From the IMG/VR virus record IMGVR_UViG_3300018080_000197, positions 1 through 59,821 of that record: a DNA stretch of 59,821 nt. One strand, given 5' to 3'. A program made the position numbers and the translations under genes. Below are positions 2,649 through 21,569 of this stretch, piece by piece (position 1 is the stretch's first letter; every line of letters starts with the position of its first letter). The notes under the pieces are model-generated. The model saw only the letters and a program-made list of their open reading frames with translations. It did not search any database and was not told where the DNA came from. This stretch comes from a virus.

Positions 2649-2888
2649 ATGTCAGACAAGAAGTCCAACACAAACGGACAAGCTGTAGCTGTGACTTGCA
2701 GACCGGACAGGCTGATATCCTTTCTGGAATGCGTCTCTGAGGTGGTGGAGAAGATACGGGAGGTAGGGACGTCCGAGAGTGTAGTCCTTTACGTTAGGCC
2801 GGGAGATACCAAGCGTCCGTTGTCTGTGGTTGTAAGAGGCAATGTAGACCTCATTGACGACACGGCTTCAGCGGAGGTGTGCTCGTGA
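2649..2888 (+). CDS. Hypothetical protein, 79 aa
   Basis: A small protein with no family I recognise. It is predicted to alternate strands and helices, with a hydrophobic centre around ISFLECVSEVVEKI. It follows the RuvC-like gene by three bases and overlaps the glycosylase start through GTGA at 2885-2888, so it is probably translated as part of the same operon. Confidence 0.65.
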   Translation: MSDKKSNTNGQAVAVTCRPDRLISFLECVSEVVEKIREVGTSESVVLYVRPGDTKRPLSVVVRGNVDLIDDTASAEVCS

Positions 2889-3469
2889 GTCTGGAGAATT
2901 GGTATCGCTGCACGGCGTGTCCCCTGTCCCGCTTCCGGAGGCGTGTGGTTCTGGGGAAGGGGACTATACCTGCGCAGATACTAATTGTGGGGGAAGCGCC
3001 GGGGAAGTCCGAGGACCTCCGCGGTGAACCGTTTGTTGGTCCGGCGGGAAGGATACTCCACAGCGCCATAGAGGATGCTACGGAACTAAGTGAACACACG
3101 TTGACCCCTACCATCTACATCACCAACACAGTGGCGTGTAGGCCAACGGATACTCCCAGAGGACCCAATAGGGAACCCACCAAGAAAGAGATTCTGACGT
3201 GTATGCCCCGGTTCCAAGCTACTGTGCGGATGGTAGCTCCACAGGAAGTGATTCTGCTGGGCAAGGTGGCAGAGGTGGCATACAAACGGCTGTATCCGGA
3301 TGCCGTGTGCCTCCGACACCCGGCATACATCTTGCGGAAGGGAGGAACGGAATCCACGGAATACAGAGGACTGGTAAGGGGCCTGGTGGACGTTTTCAAC
3401 AAGATTCCCGTGGAGCACCACAGCCACGGACGCACTATTCACAGGCGGAGGAAGAATGAGCAATCGTAG
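2885..3469 (+). CDS. Family 4-type uracil-DNA glycosylase
   Basis: Removes uracil from DNA in family 4 enzymes, which carry an iron-sulfur cluster. The sequence shows CTACPL (Cys 9 and 12 with this start), VGEAPGKSEDLRGEPFVGPAG as the uracil-binding motif A, a further Cys in NTVACRPT, and HPAYIL as the HPA-type motif B. I chose the GTG at 2885 because gcggagg at 2871-2877 is well spaced to it but too close to the in-frame GTG at 2879. The C-terminal tail is Arg/Lys rich. In this phage it could protect against deamination or process replication intermediates. Confidence 0.85.
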   Translation: MSLENWYRCTACPLSRFRRRVVLGKGTIPAQILIVGEAPGKSEDLRGEPFVGPAGRILHSAIEDATELSEHTLTPTIYITNTVACRPTDTPRGPNREPTKKEILTCMPRFQATVRMVAPQEVILLGKVAEVAYKRLYPDAVCLRHPAYILRKGGTESTEYRGLVRGLVDVFNKIPVEHHSHGRTIHRRRKNEQS

Positions 3470-8814: not shown

Positions 8815-10887
8815 ATGGCAAAAGCTAGGACCAGCACGCCACTAGACGGTTTTGCGGATCACTTCATAGGACTGGTTCCATCCTCCAGCGGACAGGCTGT
8901 AGGAGACTGTCCCTTCTGTGGGAAGGAAGACAGATTCTATGTCAACATGGAAACCGGAGCATGGGATTGCAAGGTCTGTTCCCGGTCCGGGAGTTTCTTG
9001 ACTTTCTTGGAGGAAATGGGCAAACTCAATTCAGAAAGATTCCGTGGTTCTCCGGCCTTGCGTCTGGCCAAAGACAGGGGGTTGAAGGTAGCCACCTTCC
9101 GCGCATGGCGTGTGGGTTGGGATGGGCGTCAGTTTACGGTTCCAGTGGATATCTGCGGCAAGACGTATGACCTCAGACGTTTTAGATTGGGAGGGAAGAC
9201 GCGAGCAACCACGCGGGGACGGGTGTCCTTGGCCGGGATCATGGACCCGGACTCGGATACAGTCTGGTTGTTGGAGGGGGAATGGGATGGTATGGCGCTG
9301 TGGGAATCCCTGGAGCGCTCCGGCGCGTCCGGGTCCGTTGCGGCCGTTTGCGGAGGCGGCGCTTTCCCCCAGCATGGTCTATCCCTCTTCGAGGGAAAGA
9401 ATGTCATTGTGGCATTTGACAATGATTCGGCAGGACAAAAGGGCGCACAGCGTGTCTATAGGATGTTGCATGGTCTGGCCAAGTCCCTCGCATTCGTCCA
9501 TTGGACAGAAGACACCCCGGACAAGTTCGACGTGCGAGACCTCTACTTGCGCAGCGGCGCGGACACTCCGGCTATTCTCCGGGGTCTGTTGAAGGATTCG
9601 CCTCCAGGGCTCCCGGCGGGTTCCACTGAAACGGCGGAGGAACTGACAGGTCCAGGTCTTGATTCGGAGGAAGTCACGGCTAGATTCCGCAAGTGGTTGT
9701 ATCTACCCAATACCGAAGCGTTGACCGTGATGTTCGGCGTTTTGTTGGCCAACCGCTTGCCGGGTGATCCCGTGTGGCTGTATATGGTAGCTCCATCCGG
9801 GGGTTCCAAGTCGGAACTTCTTATGACCTTGCAGGATGCCCCCTTAGTCTGGTTTCTATCCAAGCTGTCCCCCAAGGCGTTGATTTCCGGGATGGTCAAC
9901 AGTGGACAGCCGGACCCGTCATTGCTCCCACGCCTGGACGGAAAGGTCTTGGTAATCAAGGACTTCACGGTCATCCTCAAAATGCGGGATCAAGACAAGG
10001 ACGAAATCTACGGGACACTCAGAGACGCATATGATGGTAGGGTAGACCAAGGCTGGGGAACGGGCGTCTTCCGGACGTATCAGGCCACCTTCGGCGTTCT
10101 CTCCGGCGTGACCAAAGAGATAGAGAAGGAAAGGGCAGGTAGCACTTTGGGGGAACGCTTCCTGAAATATTACCTGCCTATGGACGGATTGGGGAACCTG
10201 CGTAGTCACACGTCGCTTGTGCGGAAAGCGTTGGACAACATAGCCGAAGAACCTGAAATGCGTCTGGAGCTTCGCCAGACGGCGCGGGAGGTCCTGAACC
10301 GCCCCGTGGACGTATCAAACCCCCCGACTATCCCGGAGGCTATCAAGGACAAGCTGGTCATGCTTGCCCAGTGGATAGCAGCTTTGCGAGGAGTCGTCGT
10401 GCGTGAGAGGTTCACACGTGACGTGGAGTATTCCCCTACCCCAGAAGTGGGGACACGTGTGGCCAAGCAGTTGGCCAAGCTGGGAATGGGGATAGCCTTG
10501 TTCAGGCGCGTGGAAGAGTTGGACGAATCCATTTATCAGGTAGTGGTCAAGGTCGCGCGGGACACTGTTCCGGACCGTGTGGAGTGTATAGTCCGTCACC
10601 TCTACATGCGCACCAAGACCGAGTGGGTAACGGCCGGGGACCTCTCCAAGTGGTCCAAGTTCCCTGACGGAACCGTGCGGCGCGTCCTGGAGGACCTGGA
10701 GCTTCTGAACATAGTAGTGGCGTCCAAGACCTCCAGATTCGGGGGAGGGAAGTCCTACAGACTCAGTAGGACCATGTTGCGGCTTATGCGTCCTCTGGAC
10801 CTATACCAGCGCGAGGAAAGCTTCCTGAAGACGCGGCGCAACATCACCAAGCGGCCTAAAACCGGAGGACGGCATAGTGTGTCCTGA
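8815..10887 (+). CDS. DNA primase-helicase (zinc-binding, Toprim, ATPase)
   Basis: 690 residues. An N-terminal zinc ribbon has Cys32, Cys35, Cys52 and Cys55 (CPFC, CKVC). A Toprim domain follows, with LEGEWDG around Glu154 and FDNDSAG at 201-207, as in DnaG-type primases. A P-loop ATPase domain has APSGGSKSE with Lys332, and the last part looks like a winged helix. The C terminus carries RRNITKRPK (ITK at 677-679), one of the recurring ITK peptides. It would lay primers and perhaps unwind the fork. The ATPase section is divergent from DnaB, so the helicase role is inferred. Confidence 0.87.
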   Translation: MAKARTSTPLDGFADHFIGLVPSSSGQAVGDCPFCGKEDRFYVNMETGAWDCKVCSRSGSFLTFLEEMGKLNSERFRGSPALRLAKDRGLKVATFRAWRVGWDGRQFTVPVDICGKTYDLRRFRLGGKTRATTRGRVSLAGIMDPDSDTVWLLEGEWDGMALWESLERSGASGSVAAVCGGGAFPQHGLSLFEGKNVIVAFDNDSAGQKGAQRVYRMLHGLAKSLAFVHWTEDTPDKFDVRDLYLRSGADTPAILRGLLKDSPPGLPAGSTETAEELTGPGLDSEEVTARFRKWLYLPNTEALTVMFGVLLANRLPGDPVWLYMVAPSGGSKSELLMTLQDAPLVWFLSKLSPKALISGMVNSGQPDPSLLPRLDGKVLVIKDFTVILKMRDQDKDEIYGTLRDAYDGRVDQGWGTGVFRTYQATFGVLSGVTKEIEKERAGSTLGERFLKYYLPMDGLGNLRSHTSLVRKALDNIAEEPEMRLELRQTAREVLNRPVDVSNPPTIPEAIKDKLVMLAQWIAALRGVVVRERFTRDVEYSPTPEVGTRVAKQLAKLGMGIALFRRVEELDESIYQVVVKVARDTVPDRVECIVRHLYMRTKTEWVTAGDLSKWSKFPDGTVRRVLEDLELLNIVVASKTSRFGGGKSYRLSRTMLRLMRPLDLYQREESFLKTRRNITKRPKTGGRHSVS

Positions 10888-11809
10888 ACGGAAGATCACC
10901 AAGCGGTTGAAGGCGTTGAAAGGTCCGGTCAAACGGGGCGTGGGAACGGCTGTCTTCTGGTATGGCGGGAAGGGAATCCTGTGTAGGCGCTTGCGTCCGT
11001 TGTTCCCTCCCCACAAACGCTATGTGGAACCATTCGGAGGTGGTGCGTCCGTCCTGTTGAGCAAGGAACCCGTGGAGGTGGAAGTCTACAATGACTTGGA
11101 CTCCGGTCTGGCCGACTTCTTCAGGGTCATGGCGGACCCGGAGGTCTTCCAACGGTTCTATCGTCACATAGAAGCACTTCCTTCCTCACGACAAATCTAC
11201 CTGGAATACGTGGATACGTGGAAGCGCGAGAGGGACCCGGCCGTTCGTGTGGCCAAGTGGTTCGTGGTTGCCCGGCAATCCTTCAACGGCAGATTCGGGA
11301 AAGGTTGGCGGTTCGATAGCCAACGAACCATCATGGGGTGTGGTCAGGCCGTGCGCGCGTGGCTTCAGGCCGTGGAGAAGCTTCCGGAGATTCATTTCCG
11401 ATTGCTTCACGTCCAAGTGGAGAACGACGACTTCAGGGAGATTCTGCCCCGCTATGACACGCCAGATACCCTCTTCTATTGTGATCCTCCCTACGTTCAT
11501 GCCACGCGCGGCGAAGTCAGGTATGACTTGGACATGCCGGACGATGACCATAGGGAACTGGTTGACATGCTATTGAAGTTGAAGGGAATGGTTGCCCTGT
11601 CCGGGTATGCCAATACCTTGTATACCGTTCTGGAAGACAACGGCTGGAACCGTAGGGATTTGGTGGTGACGTGTCCCTCCGCCAGCAGAGACTACGGGAC
11701 AGGCAACATCCCCAGAGGGGAGAGAACGGAATCCCTGTGGAGGAATCCGCAGGCAATGAAGGCGTGGAAGCTGGCCAAGGCCAGAAAACCACTTGTCATA
11801 GGGAGATAG
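10877..11809 (+). CDS. dam: Dam-type (D12 class) N6-adenine DNA methyltransferase
   Basis: 310 residues. The SAM site FGGGAS follows WYGGKG, the usual D12-class N-terminal motif, and the catalytic DPPY lies at residues 203-206. A GTG start at 10877 follows ggagga at 10864-10869, and the gene overlaps the primase end. The N terminus is MCPERKITKR, another ITK peptide, absent from ordinary Dam enzymes. It should methylate adenine in phage DNA, acting alongside the guanine modification genes downstream. The target site cannot be read from the sequence. Confidence 0.9.
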   Translation: MCPERKITKRLKALKGPVKRGVGTAVFWYGGKGILCRRLRPLFPPHKRYVEPFGGGASVLLSKEPVEVEVYNDLDSGLADFFRVMADPEVFQRFYRHIEALPSSRQIYLEYVDTWKRERDPAVRVAKWFVVARQSFNGRFGKGWRFDSQRTIMGCGQAVRAWLQAVEKLPEIHFRLLHVQVENDDFREILPRYDTPDTLFYCDPPYVHATRGEVRYDLDMPDDDHRELVDMLLKLKGMVALSGYANTLYTVLEDNGWNRRDLVVTCPSASRDYGTGNIPRGERTESLWRNPQAMKAWKLAKARKPLVIGR

Positions 11810-11811
11810 GA

Positions 11812-12522
11812 ATGGCTCGACGACGAATCACCAAGAAGCCGCGACCGGAAGCCGTTGTGGGGCGCGCGGTCACGTCCCCGGAACATGACTTCAGCGGGAA
11901 GGGAGGTCATTGGGGACGCAATGCCGCAGAACTGAAACGGTTGGTTGCGGAATACGAGAAGGTCCCTCTGGACAGTCTCCGGCCGTGGAAGGACAACCCC
12001 CGGATCAACACAGAGGCTATCCCCGTGGTGGCCGAGCTAATCAAGCAGCACGGCTTCGCCGGGGTAGTAGTAGCTACGCCGGACGGCGTGATACGCGCGG
12101 GACACACACGCTATGCCGCTCTGGTTTCCCTCCAGCAGGACCCGGACTTTGCTGGGGAGAAAGGGACGGTCTGGGTTCACTGGAAGAACTTCCCCACAGA
12201 GACGGCGGCGGAAGCTTATGCCCTTGCAGACAACAAGTCCGCAGAACGCGCCGACTGGGATCATGCCAAGCTGGCCAGATTGTTCAAGCAACGGAACACG
12301 GCGGACCTGGAGACCTTGCGCCAGTTCTCCGGGTTCAAGCAGCGGGAGATAGACTGGCACAGCGGACCCAGAATAGACCCGGAGAAGCTTCCTGACTTTG
12401 AAGTTCCAGCCAAGAGCTACACGGTCCGGATAGACAACGTTGACCCGGACGATTGGGAGACTGTTCTGGAACTGGTCAACAAGGCGTTGGAGGACACGGG
12501 ATATGCTGCCCAAGTTTACTAG
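11812..12522 (+). CDS. ParB/Srx-fold nuclease-like protein
   Basis: 236 residues. The ParB N-terminal domain is clear: VPLDSLRPWKDNPR, then a GHTRYAAL box, the GHxR motif conserved in ParB and related CTPase/nuclease-fold proteins, then ALADNKSAERADWD. The N terminus is MARRRITKKPR, an ITK peptide. Phages often place ParB-like proteins beside DNA methylases. Here it lies between the Dam-type gene and DpdA and overlaps DpdA by 20 bases. It could target or regulate modification; that is inference. Confidence 0.82.
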   Translation: MARRRITKKPRPEAVVGRAVTSPEHDFSGKGGHWGRNAAELKRLVAEYEKVPLDSLRPWKDNPRINTEAIPVVAELIKQHGFAGVVVATPDGVIRAGHTRYAALVSLQQDPDFAGEKGTVWVHWKNFPTETAAEAYALADNKSAERADWDHAKLARLFKQRNTADLETLRQFSGFKQREIDWHSGPRIDPEKLPDFEVPAKSYTVRIDNVDPDDWETVLELVNKALEDTGYAAQVY

Positions 12523-13549
12523 GCACGGTCACTCCGATTACGTCCACGTTTTGGTTGCCTACAACTACCTCCGGGGGAAGGACGGCATAGACCAGATACG
12601 CAGACTGACTAACAACCCCAACCTGTGCGTGTTGCTGGACAGCGGCGCTTTCATTGCCCACAGAACCCAAAAGGACATTGACCTCCAGGAGTATATGGAT
12701 TTCGTCCGGGAGGTGGGTCCGGAACTGTTCGGCTACTTTGCGCTGGACGTGATAGGCGACGTTGACGCCACGCTGCGTAACCTGGAGACCATGCGGGAGG
12801 CAGGGTTGACGCCGTGGCCTGTCTTCCAAATCAGCACAGACCGTGCGGATTTCAGGACCACAACGGAGGGCGCCTCCGTAGTGGGTATAGGTGGACTGAA
12901 TGAGCGGGTGTGGCCTTGGACCAGAAGCGCCAGATTGTCATACCTGAAGATGATGCGGGAATGGTCCCTGGACGCCGGAGTAGGTCTGCACTTGCTAGGA
13001 TATGCGGACCCGCCGGTTCTGGAGGCGTTCCAGCCGTTTTCGGCGGACTCCAGCACTTGGTTCAACGGACAGAGGTATGGGAGGGTGTTCCTCTACGCCG
13101 GACGTGGGAAATGGTTGCGGCTCTATAGGGACAATTGGCGCAAGAAGATGACTCCTGAAGCGGAATTGGAAATCACGCGGGCAGGCTACAGCGTGGCGGA
13201 CCTGGAGAATCCGGAACTGTGGACCAACACCCGCGAGAACTCGGAATCCGGAACCAACTTCTTGGCCAATCTCATGGCGCGTTCATGGGTCAAATTCTCA
13301 CTGGAGTTCTTTGCCCAGTTCACGATACGGGTGTTTCTGGTGGCGGATTCGGGAATACGTCACGGGAATCAATACCCCTTGATCCGGGAGGCTGGGAGGA
13401 TTCTTGGACGTTCTTCCCCAGCGACGGGGGAGACCTCACCGCGGCGGATAACCAAGACCCGGAAAGCCACAGACCGGGGAGTTCACGTCAAGAAGGGAAC
13501 GCCTGTGGAGTTCCCTGTAGTCAGACCACAACGGAGGTTTGGAGAATGA
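12503..13549 (+). CDS. dpdA: DpdA-like DNA guanine transglycosylase (7-deazaguanine insertion)
   Basis: 348 residues from ATG 12503, with ggagg about ten bases upstream. DpdA is a TGT-fold enzyme that exchanges guanine in DNA for a 7-deazaguanine base such as preQ0. The sequence has LLDSGAF (Asp46, the likely general base), FALDVIGD, VGIGGL, HLLGYADP and ADSSTWFNG (Asp182, the likely nucleophile position). This is the DpdA set and lacks the tRNA-TGT zinc cluster. The following genes make its substrate. The C-terminal tail contains RRITKTRK (ITK at 316-318), outside the TGT core. It overlaps queC by ATGA. Confidence 0.88.
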   Translation: MLPKFTRHGHSDYVHVLVAYNYLRGKDGIDQIRRLTNNPNLCVLLDSGAFIAHRTQKDIDLQEYMDFVREVGPELFGYFALDVIGDVDATLRNLETMREAGLTPWPVFQISTDRADFRTTTEGASVVGIGGLNERVWPWTRSARLSYLKMMREWSLDAGVGLHLLGYADPPVLEAFQPFSADSSTWFNGQRYGRVFLYAGRGKWLRLYRDNWRKKMTPEAELEITRAGYSVADLENPELWTNTRENSESGTNFLANLMARSWVKFSLEFFAQFTIRVFLVADSGIRHGNQYPLIREAGRILGRSSPATGETSPRRITKTRKATDRGVHVKKGTPVEFPVVRPQRRFGE

Positions 13550-14262
13550 GCGAGAAACGTTGCGTGTTGGCCCTTAGCGGAGGAATGGATTCCTCCACGC
13601 TGTTGTATCACTTGCTGGAAAGGGACTGGGAAGTCTCCTGTCTGGCATTCGACTACGGACAGCGCCACAAGAAGGAACTGGAGTGCGCACGCCAGATAGG
13701 GAGGTGTGCAGGAGTCCAGGTCTCCACTGTGAATCTGGGAGACATGGCGCGTGTCATCTTCCCCACGGAATGTCTCACAGGGGGTCCAGAGGAAGTCCCG
13801 GACGGTCCGTTCACGGGCGCTTCCATGCGGGTGACTGCTGTTCCCAATCTGGCCATGATCCTGATTTCAATCTGCGCGGGACACGCCATTTCCATCGGAG
13901 CAAAAGCTCCAAGTGGCTACCACGTGGAAGCCTACATGGTAGCATTCGGTTGCCACAAGCGTGAGACGTGGACCTACCCTGATAACAGGGTAGCATTCAC
14001 ATACCCTATGATAGAAGTGCTTTCCAAGTGCTACTATGAACCTGTGGAACTCCTGACGCCGTTTGTGGGTATGTCCAAACAGGCCGTGTTACGGAAGGGA
14101 CTGGACCTACATGTTCCGTTTCACAGGACGTGGACGTGCTACAACGGGATAGGTCTTCCCTGCGGCAAATGTGGCGCGTGCATGGAGCGTCTGGAAGCCT
14201 TTCGTCTGAATGGACGGCCGGACCCGTTGAAATACAGGGACGAATCCGGCTGTTGTGGTTAG
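13546..14262 (+). CDS. queC: QueC, 7-cyano-7-deazaguanine (preQ0) synthase
   Basis: 238 residues. It converts 7-carboxy-7-deazaguanine to preQ0 using ATP and ammonia. SGGMDSS at 11-17 is the PP-loop. The zinc site is Cys198, Cys206, Cys209 and Cys212 (the GLPCGKCGAC region). The length is that of stand-alone QueC, with no added glutamine amidotransferase domain such as the Gat-QueC of phages that make archaeosine-like bases. It starts at ATGA overlapping the dpdA stop. Confidence 0.95.
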   Translation: MSEKRCVLALSGGMDSSTLLYHLLERDWEVSCLAFDYGQRHKKELECARQIGRCAGVQVSTVNLGDMARVIFPTECLTGGPEEVPDGPFTGASMRVTAVPNLAMILISICAGHAISIGAKAPSGYHVEAYMVAFGCHKRETWTYPDNRVAFTYPMIEVLSKCYYEPVELLTPFVGMSKQAVLRKGLDLHVPFHRTWTCYNGIGLPCGKCGACMERLEAFRLNGRPDPLKYRDESGCCG

Positions 14263-14298
14263 GAGACGCTCCAGGACGGCAATTTCAGGAGATAACTG

Positions 14299-14364
14299 GT
14301 GTCTCAGGACCTTTTTAGGGTTACGCGCGGCCTGAGTGACAGGCGCGCGGCTTGCTGGAGGTGA
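14299..14364 (+). CDS. Possible 21-aa leader peptide between queC and queD
   Basis: A GTG at 14299 preceded by caggaga encodes a 21-residue peptide that ends within the queD ribosome site, 5 bases before its ATG. The 106-base gap is otherwise empty, and the region can fold around gcgcgcggc repeats. It may couple or tune queD translation. The evidence is only the ribosome site and position. Confidence 0.25.
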   Translation: MSQDLFRVTRGLSDRRAACWR

Positions 14365-14368
14365 AAGA

Positions 14369-14845
14369 ATGGTTACGGTCACTGTGGTTTTGAGGTGGGA
14401 AGCTGCACACAGACTCCAGAAGGTGGACAGCAAGTGCAATTCCCTGCATGGACACTCCTACAGGGCAGACATTACCGTAGGGTGTCACTGTCTGAGCGAA
14501 GCCGGGATGGTCATGGACTTCGGGGAGTTGAAGGAACTGCTATGGGCACACGTTGTCAAACCGTGGGATCACGCTATCCTTTTGTGGGAGGAAGACGTTG
14601 AACTGCACAGCATGGCTATCCATATGGGAAACAAGTTGGCTATCTTCCCCGACGACGTCACAGCGGAGTGTCTGGCGGAGACCTTGCTGTCCAAGTGTAA
14701 GGGCAGACTATTGGCATACATGGACAAGACAGCCACGGGAGGCAGTGGGTTGTTCGTGTCCCGAGTCAAAGTCTTCGAGACGGACTCCTGTTGGGCGGAA
14801 GCGGTCAACGACGGGATTTCGCAAGGAAGGCCGGTGACACCATGA
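14369..14845 (+). CDS. queD: QueD, 6-carboxy-5,6,7,8-tetrahydropterin synthase
   Basis: 158 residues. It turns 7,8-dihydroneopterin triphosphate, the FolE product, into 6-carboxytetrahydropterin. Zinc ligands are His14, His27 and His29, with the catalytic Cys23 in CNSLHGHSY. The DFGELKELL and WDHAILL motifs are also present. The ATG at 14369 follows ctggagg. It overlaps queE by ATGA. Confidence 0.95.
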   Translation: MVTVTVVLRWEAAHRLQKVDSKCNSLHGHSYRADITVGCHCLSEAGMVMDFGELKELLWAHVVKPWDHAILLWEEDVELHSMAIHMGNKLAIFPDDVTAECLAETLLSKCKGRLLAYMDKTATGGSGLFVSRVKVFETDSCWAEAVNDGISQGRPVTP

Positions 14846-15615
14846 TAGTCCAGAACATCTTTGTCAGTGTGGAGGGCGAAACTACTCTGGGAGGTCCTTT
14901 GCAGTGGACTACGTTCGTGCGCTTCAAAGGGTGTAATCTCCGCTGCTGGAAGGATTCCGGCGGGTGTGATGCTCCGGAGGCATTGGACGGCCGTGTAGAG
15001 TATGCTTGTGAGGAACAAACTCCAGAGAAATTCGCCAGTCACATTGTCTGGGGAATGAAGATAGGACACTATCCCAAACGCCTGACCCTTACAGGGGGAG
15101 AACCCCTTCTCCAGGAAGAGGACCTGTTGGAGTTTGTCCATTTGGTCCGCGAAGACGTGCTGGGTCCCGTGGAAGTGTGTCTGGAAACCAATGGGTCCGT
15201 GCCTCTTTCCGAGGTGGTTTGCAAGGTTATGGATTGCATCATCATGGACTTGAAACCGCCTTCCAGCGGAGAATCTGAACACGTCTGCTGGGAGAATCTT
15301 CAACGGCTGGAACCCGAAGATTTCGTCAAGGTAGTGGTCTCCACTGTAGAGGACCTGGAATGGGCGGCCAAAGCATGGTGGGTCAATGCTCCACTGTGGA
15401 ATGACCGGAATGTTCAAGCGCCGGGATGGTCCATAGGCGCTAAGATGGAATCAAGTATTATGTCGTCGAAGGATCAACCGTTATGGGCTACAGCATATAC
15501 AGGACTCACTCCCCAGCAGATAGCAGACTGGATACGCCAGCATGGTATGTGGAAATGGCGTCTGAACCTCCAGTGTCACCGCTGGTTGTGGCCGTGGGAA
15601 ACGGAGGGAGTCTAA
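14842..15615 (+). CDS. queE: QueE, 7-carboxy-7-deazaguanine synthase (radical SAM), unusual cluster motif
   Basis: 257 residues. QueE rearranges 6-carboxytetrahydropterin to 7-carboxy-7-deazaguanine using a 4Fe-4S cluster and SAM. The N terminus IFVSVEGE and the TLTGGEPLLQ SAM-binding segment are diagnostic. The cluster ligands are Cys31, Cys35 and Cys42, giving CX3CX6C instead of the usual radical-SAM CX3CX2C: four extra residues (KDSG) lie between the second and third Cys. All other core motifs look intact, so I expect an active enzyme. Confidence 0.92.
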   Translation: MIVQNIFVSVEGETTLGGPLQWTTFVRFKGCNLRCWKDSGGCDAPEALDGRVEYACEEQTPEKFASHIVWGMKIGHYPKRLTLTGGEPLLQEEDLLEFVHLVREDVLGPVEVCLETNGSVPLSEVVCKVMDCIIMDLKPPSSGESEHVCWENLQRLEPEDFVKVVVSTVEDLEWAAKAWWVNAPLWNDRNVQAPGWSIGAKMESSIMSSKDQPLWATAYTGLTPQQIADWIRQHGMWKWRLNLQCHRWLWPWETEGV

Positions 15616-16091
15616 TGGGCGTCTTCGGCGGCGCGCAAGGTCTGGCGGATTTCATACAGAACCTGGACGGTCTGTTCGGATTCATCCGGACGGTCAAGGC
15701 ACACCCGGAGTTCCACTTCCTCACGAATGATACGACCGGCCTGTGTGAGGGACGCTATGAACTCTGGATAAGCGTGGAGTGGGAAGAGAAGATGTTGCTC
15801 CTATTGAAGCCGTCCACACGGGAGGGACTGACCGGCAAAGTCCACCTAGCCACTGCTCAGAATAGCGCCAGTTCGCGAATAGAGGTCAAGTTCCAGAAGT
15901 GGTTCCAGAACTGTGGACGTATTTGCACCCTGGAAACGTTGACCATTCTGGGGCAGGCCATTGCAGACGCTACGGACGGGATAGTAGCGCTGGACAAACG
16001 GAAACAGGAGATAGTGTGCAACAGACCCACGGCTGAACTCCTAAAGTCGGCCGACGAGGTGGAGAATGGGAAAGATACTGACAAAAGATGA
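15615..16091 (+). CDS. Hypothetical protein, 158 aa, in the queE operon
   Basis: Not recognised. ATG 15615 overlaps the queE stop as taatg and follows ggagggag. The protein appears alpha/beta with a helical N terminus (LADFIQNLDGLFGFI) and no clear catalytic motif. Tight coupling to queE makes it a candidate for a modification accessory role, but nothing in the sequence proves it. Confidence 0.7.
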   Translation: MGVFGGAQGLADFIQNLDGLFGFIRTVKAHPEFHFLTNDTTGLCEGRYELWISVEWEEKMLLLLKPSTREGLTGKVHLATAQNSASSRIEVKFQKWFQNCGRICTLETLTILGQAIADATDGIVALDKRKQEIVCNRPTAELLKSADEVENGKDTDKR

Positions 16092-16626
16092 ATCCTTCCG
16101 GTTGTATCAATTGGGCGCATTCGGGAACCGCGTCAAACAGTGGGATAGCCTTCCGGCTGTGTGGAGGGATGATACCTACCACGGGAAGATAGTCATACGG
16201 TCCAGGAAAGGGGGAGGCGGACCCTGCCGATATGACATTGATCCCACGTGGAACGCTGTCAATGACGAACTCCAGAAACCCAAATGGGCAGGACACCACA
16301 GATACGTGTTCTTCAATCAGGCTATCCCCGTTGACCGGATAGTCCTGAACGCCGAAGTAGCGGACCTTCCCCAGCCTCCGGGACTGGTCATGGCGTATTC
16401 CACTCTAGCTACCCATATGCGCACGGCGTTGAAACAAGCGTGCAGGGTAGCGCAGGGTTGGGAGGTCATACGGATCATACGTAGCGTGTGTGATCCCGTA
16501 GCGGCGGATTGTCTGGAGGCGCTGTTAGCGGAGTATCCATCCCACGCCGTGGAGTTCACGGTTTTGGACAGGTCCATAGGGGACCTGGGCTGGAATACCA
16601 TAGTGTGGGAGGTCAGGGCATACTAG
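16066..16626 (+). CDS. Hypothetical protein, 186 aa
   Basis: Not recognised. It has an alpha/beta pattern, with a His-rich centre (WAGHHRYVFFN) and a long helix (HMRTALKQACRVAQGW). It overlaps the preceding gene by 26 bases, and gaggtgg precedes ATG 16066. It sits in the modification gene block and could act there. Confidence 0.7.
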   Translation: MGKILTKDESFRLYQLGAFGNRVKQWDSLPAVWRDDTYHGKIVIRSRKGGGGPCRYDIDPTWNAVNDELQKPKWAGHHRYVFFNQAIPVDRIVLNAEVADLPQPPGLVMAYSTLATHMRTALKQACRVAQGWEVIRIIRSVCDPVAADCLEALLAEYPSHAVEFTVLDRSIGDLGWNTIVWEVRAY

Positions 16627-16639
16627 CGGAGGAATCACA

Positions 16640-16933
16640 ATGGAACCGCATATAGTGGCCGAAATTCACAATGCAAGACTGGTCTGTTTTGACAAGACGT
16701 GGGGACAGAATCCCCCGCAAACGGAACAGATAACCATTCTGGAAATCAAGCAACAGGACGCTATGGGGGAAACCGCATGGCGTGAAGTCCTGCGCTTGGT
16801 AGATGGAAGAGTAGGCAAATCGGGTAGTTCCCCAAGCGTCAATACACTAAAATGGGCTGTGGACCTGTTGGTTCAATTGGTGGCTTCTGCACACTACGTA
16901 AAGGAAGAGGGAACGGATGTTGATACTGATTGA
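16640..16933 (+). CDS. Hypothetical protein, 97 aa
   Basis: A small acidic protein with a good ribosome site (ggagga, 16628-16633). No motif is recognised. It overlaps the HAD phosphatase start by 17 bases. Confidence 0.65.
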   Translation: MEPHIVAEIHNARLVCFDKTWGQNPPQTEQITILEIKQQDAMGETAWREVLRLVDGRVGKSGSSPSVNTLKWAVDLLVQLVASAHYVKEEGTDVDTD

Positions 16934-17531
16934 CTGTGACGGCGTGGTAGTGGACCTGTTCTCGGCCTACTGTGACCACGTGTGTGTAGGCGGGATGCAC
17001 GAGAAGGTCCTACAGGCTATGTCCTATGGTCCCTCTGACAAAACGTGGGTCAAGGCTGTAGTCACAGCGGACAACAGACGCTTGGAGGACGTGCAGCGAA
17101 CTACGGATATCCTGTTCAACACGGTTCCCCCGGAGTGGTGGTCCTCTCTCCCAGCATACCCATACGCACGGGAGGTGGTGGAACTGTGCAAGCACTACGG
17201 GTCCGTCTGTTTTGTGACGCTGCCCTGGAAACCGTCAGACGCGGGAGGGAAGCTGGCGTGGCTGGAGAGGGAGTTCCCGGAGGTCCCGCGCGCCATTATC
17301 AGCAACCGGGAGGTTCTGGCGGCGCAAGGCGTGGTTCTGGTGGACGACAATCCGGACAACACCAAATTGTTCCGGAGAAGCGGCGGGTTCGCAGCAACCT
17401 TCCTCCAGCAGTGGACCCGGACGGCAGACAATGACGTGCAGGGTCCTTTGACGGCAGACCACAGGCTAAATGACCTGCGGGAGAAGCTGGACGCTATCTC
17501 GCGCCTGACCCGCAGACGGAAAGGAAGATGA
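16917..17531 (+). CDS. HAD-superfamily phosphatase, 5'(3')-deoxyribonucleotidase-like
   Basis: 204 residues. The first HAD motif is DCDGVVVD, with the nucleophile and acid Asp pair four to six residues after the start region. A later segment has FVTLPWKPSD and the terminal motif VLVDDNPDN. This resembles the short NT5C-type nucleotidases of phages. It could adjust nucleotide pools or remove phosphates from pathway intermediates. The C-terminal tail is basic (RLTRRRKGR). Confidence 0.78.
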   Translation: MLILIDCDGVVVDLFSAYCDHVCVGGMHEKVLQAMSYGPSDKTWVKAVVTADNRRLEDVQRTTDILFNTVPPEWWSSLPAYPYAREVVELCKHYGSVCFVTLPWKPSDAGGKLAWLEREFPEVPRAIISNREVLAAQGVVLVDDNPDNTKLFRRSGGFAATFLQQWTRTADNDVQGPLTADHRLNDLREKLDAISRLTRRRKGR

Positions 17532-17532
17532 C

Positions 17533-17907
17533 ATGGGAATGGTGATAACCGAACTGGGAAACGCCGAGGATTGGCGGTTCGTTCGGGCGGAAAAGACAGC
17601 AGAAGACGGCAACGTGGAGTTCCGCTGGGTCGCCAGCAAGCGGCGCGTGTTCAATGAGGAGTCCCCGGACGGGACTTGGTGGCAAACGGACGTGATTCTC
17701 CGCGTGGAGAATGACGACGTCGCCGCCTACGGCGTCAGGATAGAGAAGGGGGATTCCGTTGGAGAGAAAGGACGGCCGGACCCCTTCCCCACGTGGGTAG
17801 TGATGATGTTGGCCGGGTTCAAGACCACTTTTCTGGAGCAGGGTCAAGGGCAGGCGCAGTCTCCCATAGTGGGGATTGACGGGAAACCCGTGGCCGGAGT
17901 GAACTAA
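17533..17907 (+). CDS. Hypothetical protein, 124 aa
   Basis: A beta-rich small protein with several Trp residues, no recognised family. It starts one base after the HAD gene and overlaps the next gene as taatg. Confidence 0.65.
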   Translation: MGMVITELGNAEDWRFVRAEKTAEDGNVEFRWVASKRRVFNEESPDGTWWQTDVILRVENDDVAAYGVRIEKGDSVGEKGRPDPFPTWVVMMLAGFKTTFLEQGQGQAQSPIVGIDGKPVAGVN

Positions 17908-18203
17908 TGGCTAAGGGCAAGTCTACTCCCAGAGGGAAGCTTCAGTGGAGATTCGGACGCCTTCAGAAGCAATTCGAGAAGGCCAAAAAGCTGAACCCGG
18001 ATGACCCGGAGGATTGTGTCATGCCTCTGGGTTCTCACGCGGGGAAGACTCTGGGAGAGATTGCGGATGATGACGAAGGATTACTGTATCTGGACTACAT
18101 AGTAGGGCAGTGGGATGAAAGTCCGCTGGTCCAGAAGGTTTGCAGGGTTCTGGAGACGCCGGAAAGACAGGAACGTCTCCGCAGATTGTTGGAGGACGGA
18201 TGA
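17907..18203 (+). CDS. DUF3820-like small protein, 98 aa
   Basis: The centre VMPLGSHAGKTLGEIADDD...LYLDYIVGQW matches the pattern of the DUF3820 family (small proteins with a G-x-x-x-G-K-x-L core followed by a YL-W helix), often found near nucleases and in phages. Function is unknown. It overlaps the MazG-like gene as ATGA. Confidence 0.55.
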   Translation: MAKGKSTPRGKLQWRFGRLQKQFEKAKKLNPDDPEDCVMPLGSHAGKTLGEIADDDEGLLYLDYIVGQWDESPLVQKVCRVLETPERQERLRRLLEDG

Positions 18204-18586
18204 TTCCGTCTGGAAAGGCTACAGAAATGGATAGAGGACCATTGAAGTGTCCGTTGACCGTCAATGCCATAATGGTGGAGGCGGATGCCCACGCGCACGA
18301 AGCGGGGTTCAGGGATTCCACGCATACGGCCACATTCGGAGAACACATAGCCTTGTGTCACTCCGAATTGTCGGAGGCGCTGGAGGCATTCCGCAAGGAT
18401 GGTATGGTCTCCATGCGCTTCACGGACAGCGGCAAGCCGGAGGGAGTAGGGGAGGAACTGGCCGACGTGATTATCCGCGTCTGTGACATGGCCATGTTGT
18501 TCAATATCCCCCTGGAGGATTGCATCCGTCACAAGATGCTATACAACCGCACGCGCCCCAAGCATCACGGCGGGAAGTCCATTTGA
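18200..18586 (+). CDS. MazG-like nucleotide pyrophosphohydrolase
   Basis: 128 residues from ATG 18200, preceded by ggagga. It has the all-alpha NTP pyrophosphatase metal motifs: CHSELSEALEAFR (paired Glu) and GVGEELADVIIRVCDMA (E-E-x-x-D). Such enzymes hydrolyse dNTPs or NTPs. In phages MazG may alter nucleotide or alarmone pools. Here it lies just before the FolE fusion, which consumes GTP. An alternative start at 18228 is possible. Confidence 0.8.
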   Translation: MIPSGKATEMDRGPLKCPLTVNAIMVEADAHAHEAGFRDSTHTATFGEHIALCHSELSEALEAFRKDGMVSMRFTDSGKPEGVGEELADVIIRVCDMAMLFNIPLEDCIRHKMLYNRTRPKHHGGKSI

Positions 18587-18622
18587 CCCACACGGGTGAT
18601 TCCGTCTGGAGGGAGAACAAAC

Positions 18623-19648
18623 ATGCCGGAAACCACTAACGCACCAGTAGTTCCCAGACAACACGTAATGACGTGGCAAGAAGCATTGGCCCGATTGAAG
18701 GTCCTGGACGTGGACAAGCTGGGTCACAGAGTCTACGGAGTCCCGCGCGGGGGAATGTGTCTGGCCACGTTGCTGGCTCACGCCACTACCACGCACGTTC
18801 CCAGCCAAGCGGATATCATCCTGGACGATATCATTGACTCCGGACAGACACAGCGCAACTACAGGAACAAGTATCCGCAGGCGCGGTTCGTCGCCATTGT
18901 GGACAAGACCACGGACGGCTACACGTCCAAACACGTCACCCTGCCGGAACTGTGGCGCGCCGCCGCTGCTGGGGGTGAGAGCATCCCCGAGGACCCGCAC
19001 ACGTTTCCGGTGGACAAAGACATGGGCTGGATTACGTTCCCGTGGGAGATAGACGGGAAGGGCGATCCAGAGACGGCGGAAGGGCGGATAGCTGCGCAGG
19101 ATTCCGTGATACGCCTTCTCCAGTTCATGGGGGAGAATCCTCTGAGACAGGGACTGAAGGACACGCCGGACCGCGTGTTACGGATGTATCAGGAGTTGAC
19201 CAGTGGCTACGGAGAGAACCCCACAGCCCATTTGAAGGCGGCGTTTGACTCCGAATGTGATGAAATGGTAGTTGTCCGGGGAATCCGTTTCACGTCCCTG
19301 TGTGAACACCATCTTCTCCCCTTCACGGGGGACGTGGCTATCGGCTACCTCCCAGCCAACGGCCGTGTGGTCGGCCTGTCCAAGCTGGTCCGCGTGGTAG
19401 ACACACTGGCCAAGCGGCTCCAGATTCAGGAGCGGTTGACGGGGGAGATAGCGCAGACCATCATGGGGTTGGCCGGGGGATTGCACCCGTTGGGAGTGGG
19501 AGTGGTGGTCCAGGCGCGGCATTCGTGTATGGGTTGCCGCGGTGTCAAACGTCCGGAATCAGAGGCTGTTACCTCCGCTATGCTGGGGGTTTTCCGCGAA
19601 AAGCCGGAGGTCCGGTCTGAATTCCTGTCTTTGGTGAGGGACAAGTAG
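18623..19648 (+). CDS. folE: Phosphoribosyltransferase-GTP cyclohydrolase I fusion
   Basis: 341 residues with two domains. The N-terminal part (to about 150) is a type I phosphoribosyltransferase: VYGVPRGG, then the PRPP loop IILDDIIDSG at 65-74, then DKDMGWITFPWE at its end. The rest is GTP cyclohydrolase I: NPLRQGLKDTPDRVLRMY, the zinc and catalytic CEHHLLPF (Cys227, His230) and RHSCMGCRG (Cys302). FolE makes 7,8-dihydroneopterin triphosphate from GTP, the first step towards preQ0. The PRTase half could salvage a purine base to a nucleotide and so feed GTP supply; this is inference. Both halves keep their key residues. ATG 18623 follows ggaggga. Confidence 0.92.
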   Translation: MPETTNAPVVPRQHVMTWQEALARLKVLDVDKLGHRVYGVPRGGMCLATLLAHATTTHVPSQADIILDDIIDSGQTQRNYRNKYPQARFVAIVDKTTDGYTSKHVTLPELWRAAAAGGESIPEDPHTFPVDKDMGWITFPWEIDGKGDPETAEGRIAAQDSVIRLLQFMGENPLRQGLKDTPDRVLRMYQELTSGYGENPTAHLKAAFDSECDEMVVVRGIRFTSLCEHHLLPFTGDVAIGYLPANGRVVGLSKLVRVVDTLAKRLQIQERLTGEIAQTIMGLAGGLHPLGVGVVVQARHSCMGCRGVKRPESEAVTSAMLGVFREKPEVRSEFLSLVRDK

Positions 19649-20852: not shown

Positions 20853-21569
20853 ATGAAGTTCTCACGAGCCAATCTTCAGGTAGTGAGAGTGGTTACACGG
20901 AATAAGGCGGACACGGTTCTCCGGCAGGTCCGGATAGACGCGGACGGGACAACCGTTGCTTCTGACGGAAACGCGGTCATGGCCGTGGAACCCGTGAGCG
21001 AGGACACCATCCGTGAGGAATCCGCCCTTCCGGCCTTCGCGTCTGAAACGGACGTTCCGGAGGACGGGGTAGGACTGGTCCCGGAAGTGGTCACGGAAGC
21101 CATACGGAATCTCCCCAAGGGGAACCTGGCCTTGGAACTGGGGTTCGTGGTCCTGACGGACTGTTCGGAGAAGGAGCAGCAGGTAGCTTTGACTACCACG
21201 GACCTGAAGATGAATAAGACCGTGGAAGGCTACATGGCGCGCAAGCGCTTCCCGGAGTGGCGAAGCATCCTGAAGCGGATCAAGCGCCGTTCCACACGCA
21301 AGGTCTGCCTCCACAGGAAGTCGTTGATTCGGTTGTTGAATGCTGTTGACGCGGCTTGCCCGGCCGGGGAGCCATTGGTCTTCCTGGAGTTCTCGGACAC
21401 GCCGGAGACGGACGGCATTCTTCTACGCGCCGTGGCCGTGGAGACGGGGCAGAGAGTCATAGGCTATCTTATGCCTATGGATACGGGAGAGGACTGGTTG
21501 AAGCTGTCCCCGTGGGAGCAGTCCGTGTTTGCCCGCGCTATCAAGCGGTTGAAGGGAGGAAGGGTATGA
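20853..21569 (+). CDS. Putative DNA sliding-clamp-like protein (beta-clamp fold)
   Basis: 238 residues. The start (FSRANLQVVRVV) and the VRIDADGTTVASDGNAVMAVEPV strand pair resemble the N-terminal domain of DnaN-type clamps, where a similar 'ATDGHRLA' loop occurs. A second domain begins near KVCLHRKSLIRLLNAV. The length would fit a two-domain clamp. The resemblance is by pattern only. A clamp would raise polymerase processivity. A 20-base leader including the ATG is identical to that of the gene at 56802. Confidence 0.45.
   Translation: MKFSRANLQVVRVVTRNKADTVLRQVRIDADGTTVASDGNAVMAVEPVSEDTIREESALPAFASETDVPEDGVGLVPEVVTEAIRNLPKGNLALELGFVVLTDCSEKEQQVALTTTDLKMNKTVEGYMARKRFPEWRSILKRIKRRSTRKVCLHRKSLIRLLNAVDAACPAGEPLVFLEFSDTPETDGILLRAVAVETGQRVIGYLMPMDTGEDWLKLSPWEQSVFARAIKRLKGGRV

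Follow-up and report, generated by a model that had tools for sequence, protein, structure and literature searches.

A probable 7-deazaguanine cassette

The window analysed here is the whole of virus record IMGVR_UViG_3300018080_000197, 59,821 bases known from sequence, and it carries a tailed-phage gene set (terminase, portal, head morphogenesis, scaffold, major head, tape measure and tail genes) together with replication genes for a DNA polymerase, a primase, a helicase and an exonuclease. It also encodes FolE, QueD, QueE and QueC, the predicted enzymes of a route from guanosine triphosphate (GTP) to a 7-deazaguanine base, along with a DpdA-type transglycosylase that would insert such a base into DNA, and the FolE protein is joined to a phosphoribosyltransferase domain resembling Gpt. 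The genes of this cassette, and the two domains of FolE, are as follows.

12503..13549, + strand: dpdA, DNA-guanine transglycosylase-like protein, 348 amino acids (PHROG 887, 4.4e-23)
13546..14262, + strand: queC (Pfam QueC, 2.4e-44; compared with 128 other QueCs and E. coli QueC)
14369..14845, + strand: queD, 6-carboxytetrahydropterin synthase family (Pfam PTPS, 1.8e-26; PHROG 2389, 4.8e-29)
14842..15615, + strand: queE, radical-SAM 7-carboxy-7-deazaguanine (CDG) synthase family (TIGR03963, 2.3e-33; PHROG 2076, 2.2e-30)
18623..19648, + strand: folE, two-domain (Pfam FolE, 1.1e-65; possible GTG start at 18596)
18623..19090, + strand: Gpt (xanthine-guanine) phosphoribosyltransferase-like N-terminal domain of folE (profile and hhalign)
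19091..19648, + strand: GTP cyclohydrolase I (FolE) C-terminal domain of folE (Pfam, 1.1e-65; AlphaFold2 model)

The Pfam, NCBIfam and PHROG matches behind these five functions are far beyond chance. The genes dpdA, queC, queD and queE are closely linked and partly overlapping, with an ATGA overlap of start and stop at both dpdA/queC and queD/queE, and folE lies outside this tight cluster, separated from queE by seven open reading frames (ORFs). Hidden Markov model searches of the whole record for QueF (PF14489) and GATase_7 (PF13537) gave no match, and the same searches were positive in control genomes; we take this as the absence of QueF and of an amidotransferase, with no search aimed at ArcS made. 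An earlier note on this DNA had described the same five functions, their linkage and the lack of a QueF or amidotransferase, and as an observation it is largely right. What it overlooked is the composition of FolE, which by its domain matches consists of two domains, the N-terminal one a phosphoribosyltransferase.

A Gpt-like phosphoribosyltransferase fused to FolE

The first ~150 residues of the FolE protein form a domain that is not FolE. The C-terminal part has the expected Zn ligands, Cys227, His230 and Cys302 (residue numbers count from the ATG at 18623), all in invariant columns, and its AlphaFold2 model, built from an alignment with rows from the window and viral contigs only, matches GTP cyclohydrolase I structures with a template-modelling score, TM(target), of ~0.9. 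The N-terminal domain carries the motif string GVPRGG ... IILDDIIDSGQT ... DK ... WITFPWE. A profile built from 41 of these domains matches the xanthine and xanthine-guanine phosphoribosyltransferases of PDB entries 5xtk/6kp5 and 1a98 at 7e-12 to 1.4e-11, and hhalign of the domain to E. coli Gpt gives 98.4% (E 6.7e-15). Invariant or nearly so among the 41 domains are a P-x-GG loop, the phosphoribosyl pyrophosphate (PRPP) loop DDxxDSGxT, a Lys and a W-x-x-x-P-W motif. In Gpt, those positions bind PRPP and the 6-oxopurine. The PRPP loop, the Lys and W-x-x-x-P-W are shared with E. coli Gpt itself, from which the phage domain differs in being mostly shorter and fused to FolE.

The fusion keeps close company with dpdA. 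Among viral loci with a fused FolE, dpdA lies nearby in 79 of 83, although these loci were gathered by similarity to four seed fusions and the sample is biased accordingly; the remaining four are short or have an end near folE. Where a fused locus extends 5.5 kb or more to each side, dpdA is always found (48/48), against 11 of 16 loci with an unfused FolE. Since the fusion is present in 41 of the 76 FolE-bearing loci of a set anchored on DpdA instead, it is an optional component. Copies of the domain also stand alone: in L060 one lies between queC and dpdA, and in L266 and L267 one lies between queD and queE (L-numbers denote comparison loci retrieved for this analysis; L008, for example, is Rhodococcus phage Finch), and in L064 (8891-9748) the same Gpt-like domain is fused to a ParB-like stretch directly 3' of dpdA, the ParB-like N-terminus being read from sequence. 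None of the 80 best cellular FolE loci carries a phosphoribosyltransferase domain, in a ranking that favours plain FolE. In Sphingomonas phage MMDA13, Vibrio phage VpKK5, Pseudomonas phage Baskent_P4_1 and others, the same architecture is found, at 41-46% identity in the alignments, with dpdA adjacent, and these fusions are annotated as GTP cyclohydrolase only. The word "phosphoribosyl" is absent from the Vid5 and MMDA13 papers, and we found no account of the domain in the open literature searched; most subscription journals fell outside that search, so an earlier mention is possible.

It is quite possible, if somewhat short of probable, that this phosphoribosyltransferase, usually fused to FolE and elsewhere standing alone or joined to a ParB-like stretch, is a dedicated though optional component of phage DpdA cassettes, one that salvages the guanine removed by DpdA, drives the exchange and feeds GTP back into the pathway. 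Production of guanosine monophosphate (GMP) from DpdA-released guanine is our best reading of the fused domain. Phage 7-deazaguanine systems are already known; what goes beyond them here, besides the altered QueC described below, is the widespread occurrence near dpdA of a FolE with a Gpt-like domain, which hints at how such phages handle the guanine freed by base exchange.

DpdA, QueD and QueE

The window DpdA matches PHROG 887 and also PHROG 7068 (1.1e-13), both annotated as queuine tRNA-ribosyltransferase, and has no Pfam match, tRNA-guanine transglycosylase (TGT) included. It retains every residue that is invariant in an alignment of 45 phage DpdAs, among them D46, S47, D82, H163 and D182. 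In the PDB the DpdA family profile has one significant match, at 6.5e-5, to the "DNA-guanine transglycosylase" 7ui4, and E. coli tRNA TGT aligns to the profile over only ~20 columns, around DSG. No Cys-rich Zn motif was found in the window DpdA sequence, which thus appears to lack both the clear TGT-family match and the Zn site of a tRNA-guanine transglycosylase.

At position 109 the window DpdA has Gln, where 41 of the 45 aligned DpdAs have His. The window protein lies on a long branch within a supported set of ten (100/84) in a tree built from 100 phage DpdAs, and the other nine members of this set, all from viral contigs, have Thr at this position. A first interpretation of the Gln as a sign of decay was rejected on this ground: since all nine clade relatives also lack His, Gln109 is better understood as a clade feature. 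The loci of these nine relatives all carry the same five genes, in the order dpdA-queC-queD-queE-folE in eight of the nine. Viral contigs scanned with the single DpdA and QueE proteins yielded no relatives; the contig scan for DpdA was done with a narrower alignment, the 43-row DpdA alignment being too diverse.

In the alignment, QueD has the expected catalytic and metal residues (CxxxHGH, WDH and a C-terminal Glu). The cluster motif of QueE is CX3CX6C (CNLRCWKDSGGC). In our survey of phage QueEs most have CX3CX2C and some have CX14CX2C (the variant that names NCBIfam TIGR04508), and enlarged second loops occur elsewhere as CX3CX8C, CX3CX13C and CX3CX18C. The window motif was likewise initially read as decay, a view abandoned because loops of larger size recur in several lineages of phage QueE; with loops of 8, 13 and 18 residues on record, it falls within a natural series. 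QueEs in which this second loop, from the second cluster cysteine to the third, is enlarged were seen in L054, L055, L095, L096, L104, L113, L125, L164 and L168.

An altered QueC

Among the cassette enzymes, QueC is, in its aligned key residues, the real exception. It keeps SGGMDS (the SGGxDS motif for adenosine triphosphate), YGQRHKKE (YxQxHxxE), the Tyr of YPDx and the Zn cysteines, the last as C(x)7CxxCxxC, one residue shorter than C(x)8CxxCxxC. In place of VPxRN, however, it has VPNLA, with Leu-Ala replacing a near-universal Arg-Asn. Among 129 non-redundant aligned QueCs the Arg is present in 128 and the Asn in 127, the window sequence being the one without Arg; additional QueC relatives that cover the motif also retain RN. 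In the alignment with E. coli QueC, R99, the Arg of VPGRN, stands opposite the window Leu. YPDC has become YPDN, the GD before that motif is also altered, and there is an insert of 10 residues. Of the canonical motif set YxQxHxxE, VPxRN and YPDC (cluster 1 of PMC13329287), only YxQxHxxE is kept. The E. coli R99A variant is inactive and makes no queuosine (PMC13329287).

The nucleotide sequence gives the VPNLA codons unambiguously (gtt ccc aat ctg gcc), and a single contig covers the site. A second locus, L174, matches the window at 99.995% over 21 kb and has no FolE match; since by its position it appears to start beyond the cassette, the QueC change cannot be confirmed from it. The active site of the window QueC is unlike every other examined, and it offers a test of which residues the enzyme truly needs.

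Gene neighbourhood of the cassette

The genes on either side of dpdA-queC-queD-queE, and those between queE and folE with a recognizable family or relative, are listed below, with the gene directly 3' of queE.

10877..11809, + strand: D12-class N6-adenine DNA methyltransferase (Pfam PF02086, 4.5e-17; PHROG 56, 1.1e-53)
11671..12522, + strand: ParB-like protein (PHROG 620, 2.2e-22; blastp)
15615..16091, + strand: gene directly 3' of queE, no Pfam, PHROG or NCBIfam match
16066..16626, + strand: gene without a Pfam, PHROG or NCBIfam family; 31% relative in L178
16917..17531, + strand: NT5C-like 5'(3')-deoxyribonucleotidase (Pfam PF06941, 8.5e-6)
18140..18586, + strand: MazG-like pyrophosphatase (PHROG 3301, 4.8e-28)

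The ParB-like ORF is listed from a GTG at 11671, its conserved part beginning at about residue 94, and dpdA starts inside it, so the two genes overlap. A ParB-like gene also adjoins dpdA in Rhodococcus phage Finch and lies near dpdA in L094, L110 and L140. No candidate for a tailoring enzyme emerged, the gene at 15615..16091 having no blastp relatives in the other que loci compared; in L178, the contig fragment with the relative of 16066..16626, DpdA, FolE and QueC were not found. Neither a preQ1 riboswitch nor any other Rfam family was detected in the window. The D12-class methyltransferase at 10877-11809 sits immediately 5' of the cassette, and with it this phage may possess two kinds of DNA modification.

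Comparison with known systems

With DpdA, FolE, QueD, QueE and QueC present and no amidotransferase found, assignment of the cassette to the phage 7-deazaguanine DNA-modification systems (the second group of Hutinet 2019) is well supported as a prediction. Closest in layout among characterized examples are the Mycobacterium phages Rosebush and Kheth (Rosebushvirus), which encode the same five functions, with the same dpdA-queC-queD-queE order in Kheth, and whose group is defined by the lack of an amidotransferase (PMC6884629). Rosebush DNA contains 2'-deoxy-7-cyano-7-deazaguanosine (dPreQ0) at ~28% of G (PMC6884629). In contrast to the fused and distant FolE of the window, however, the FolE of the Rosebush type lacks a phosphoribosyltransferase domain and lies directly 3' of queE; the Rosebush-type QueC keeps VPNRN and YPDC, both altered in the window, and DpdA identity is ~25%. 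Rhodococcus phage Finch has a ParB-like-dpdA-queC-queD-queE order identical to that of the window, but its FolE is unfused and adjacent and its QueC has VPNRN. We know of no measurement of the base in Finch DNA.

Seuratvirus CAjan and Nonagvirus 9g also combine DpdA with FolE, QueD, QueE and QueC, and an anti-restriction function has been shown there; these types differ from the window in gene order, in the presence of YhhQ or Gat-QueC, and in an unfused FolE (relatives GottfriedDienst and JenK1). Compared with phage records as DNA, the cassette gave no match. Outside phages, TubE of tubercidin biosynthesis is likewise a phosphoribosyltransferase beside a 7-deazaguanine pathway, but it is CDG-specific, stands alone and makes an antibiotic nucleoside (PMC6112128).

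Proposed mechanism and alternatives

We consider it probable that the window carries a phage 7-deazaguanine cassette in which FolE, QueD, QueE and QueC supply a base, most likely 7-cyano-7-deazaguanine (preQ0), for insertion by DpdA, and in which the Gpt-like domain recycles guanine. FolE, QueD and QueE would convert GTP to CDG, which the phage QueC or a host QueC would turn into preQ0; DpdA would excise chosen guanines from the phage DNA and insert the 7-deazaguanine base, and the modified DNA would be hidden from some host restriction enzymes. The Gpt-like domain would join the released guanine to PRPP, giving GMP and eventually GTP for FolE, and GMP formation would pull the reversible DpdA exchange forward. 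Since each swap frees one guanine and is reversible in principle, removal of guanine would help the exchange. What the sequence itself establishes is which genes are present and in what order, which residues are kept or altered, that FolE has two domains and that this fusion regularly accompanies dpdA. We infer all activities, the identity of the base, the recycling and the anti-restriction role, the recycling from context and homology and the anti-restriction role by analogy with other phages.

The earlier note had read the locus as a complete route to dPreQ0 in DNA with all key residues intact, an interpretation that now holds in part. That the phage encodes a route leading from GTP to a 7-deazaguanine, which DpdA would insert, is well supported by gene content, by the order shared with Rosebush and by the residues of DpdA, QueD and FolE. 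The claim of intact residues does not stand, given VPNLA and YPDN in QueC, CX3CX6C in QueE and Gln109 in DpdA, and the call of dPreQ0 is weakened by a QueC without the Arg whose Ala mutant makes no queuosine in E. coli. We still regard dPreQ0 as the most likely base, with dADG and dCDG (the deoxynucleosides of 7-amido-7-deazaguanine, ADG, and of CDG) or host-completed preQ0 as possible outcomes.

Several observations weigh against the mechanism or its parts, beyond the biased sampling of the co-occurrence loci. About half of DpdA cassettes do without a phosphoribosyltransferase domain, and by analogy with TubE and its use of CDG (PMC6112128) the substrate of the domain may differ from guanine. 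The QueE motif conforms neither to the canonical CX3CX2C nor to the known CX14CX2C; a Foldseek search with the DpdA model yields weak TIM-barrel matches and nothing beyond; and preQ0 formation by a QueC that lacks the VPxRN Arg and the YPDC Cys is doubtful. As to the anti-restriction role, the data on 9g show that dPreQ0 need not block every enzyme, EcoRI being the example (PMC6884629).

The altered QueC bears on two of the alternatives. An active cassette with a base other than dPreQ0, where QueC stops at the amide (ADG) or idles and DpdA inserts ADG or CDG, has a limited though real chance of being correct. Its QueC is the only one of 129 with an Arg-less VPxRN motif, the YPDC region differs as well (in its Cys and in Gly-Asp), the window DpdA clade without His109 could accompany another base, and dADG is found in Campylobacter phages, with some in MED16 (PMC8306585); yet the protein retains SGGxDS, YxQxHxxE, the YPDx Tyr and an intact Zn site, and because the nine clade DpdAs without His109 pair with QueCs that keep VPxRN, the loss of His109 and the QueC change are not linked across the clade. 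We rate as somewhat unlikelier the possibility that the phage QueC is dead or weak and a host QueC completes preQ0, with dPreQ0 still as the base. The missing essential Arg would fit this, as would the fact that some pathway phages, such as Bipper, lack queC and that most hosts of these phages have a queuosine pathway of their own (PMC6884629), but the queC ORF is intact and retains the Zn site and the remaining motifs, which points to ongoing use.

For the fused domain, the main rival to guanine recycling is action on CDG or preQ0, giving a modified nucleotide as TubE does. The TubE cluster also includes a GTP cyclohydrolase I gene and a 7-deazaguanine pathway (PMC6112128), but the domain is closest to xanthine-guanine phosphoribosyltransferase and occurs with DpdA, a user of free bases. 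This rival, too, has a limited though real chance. That the genes simply raise host tRNA queuosine or folate, leaving the DNA unmodified, seems very improbable: FolE is common to folate synthesis and some phages have preQ0 genes without dpdA (PMC6884629), but here dpdA overlaps both queC and the ParB-like gene, and the best profile match of its product is a DNA-guanine transglycosylase rather than E. coli tRNA TGT, which aligns only around DSG.

The cassette among relatives of the replication module

The cassette is optional among relatives of the phage's replication genes. In L176, an 81.5-kb sibling of the replication module, no DpdA, FolE or QueC was seen, and 3' of the ParB-like gene, in place of dpdA-queCDE, lies an ORF whose translation shows C5-cytosine methyltransferase motifs, whereas L177/L094 has ParB-dpdA-queC-queD-queE-folE ahead of the helicase. 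This difference between L176 and L177/L094 suggests a swappable modification slot. Within the L176 region 12082-15994, a methyltransferase-like ORF farther upstream (12082-14337) is seemingly interrupted by an intein-like stretch. Elsewhere in the replication module, the window encodes a Uracil-DNA glycosylase superfamily protein at 2879-3469 (+ strand; Pfam UDG, 6.7e-25). An unannotated protein at 20853-21569 (+ strand), whose N-terminus looks somewhat like a sliding clamp, is kept in relatives of the module, at 52% in L176 and 34% in L177.

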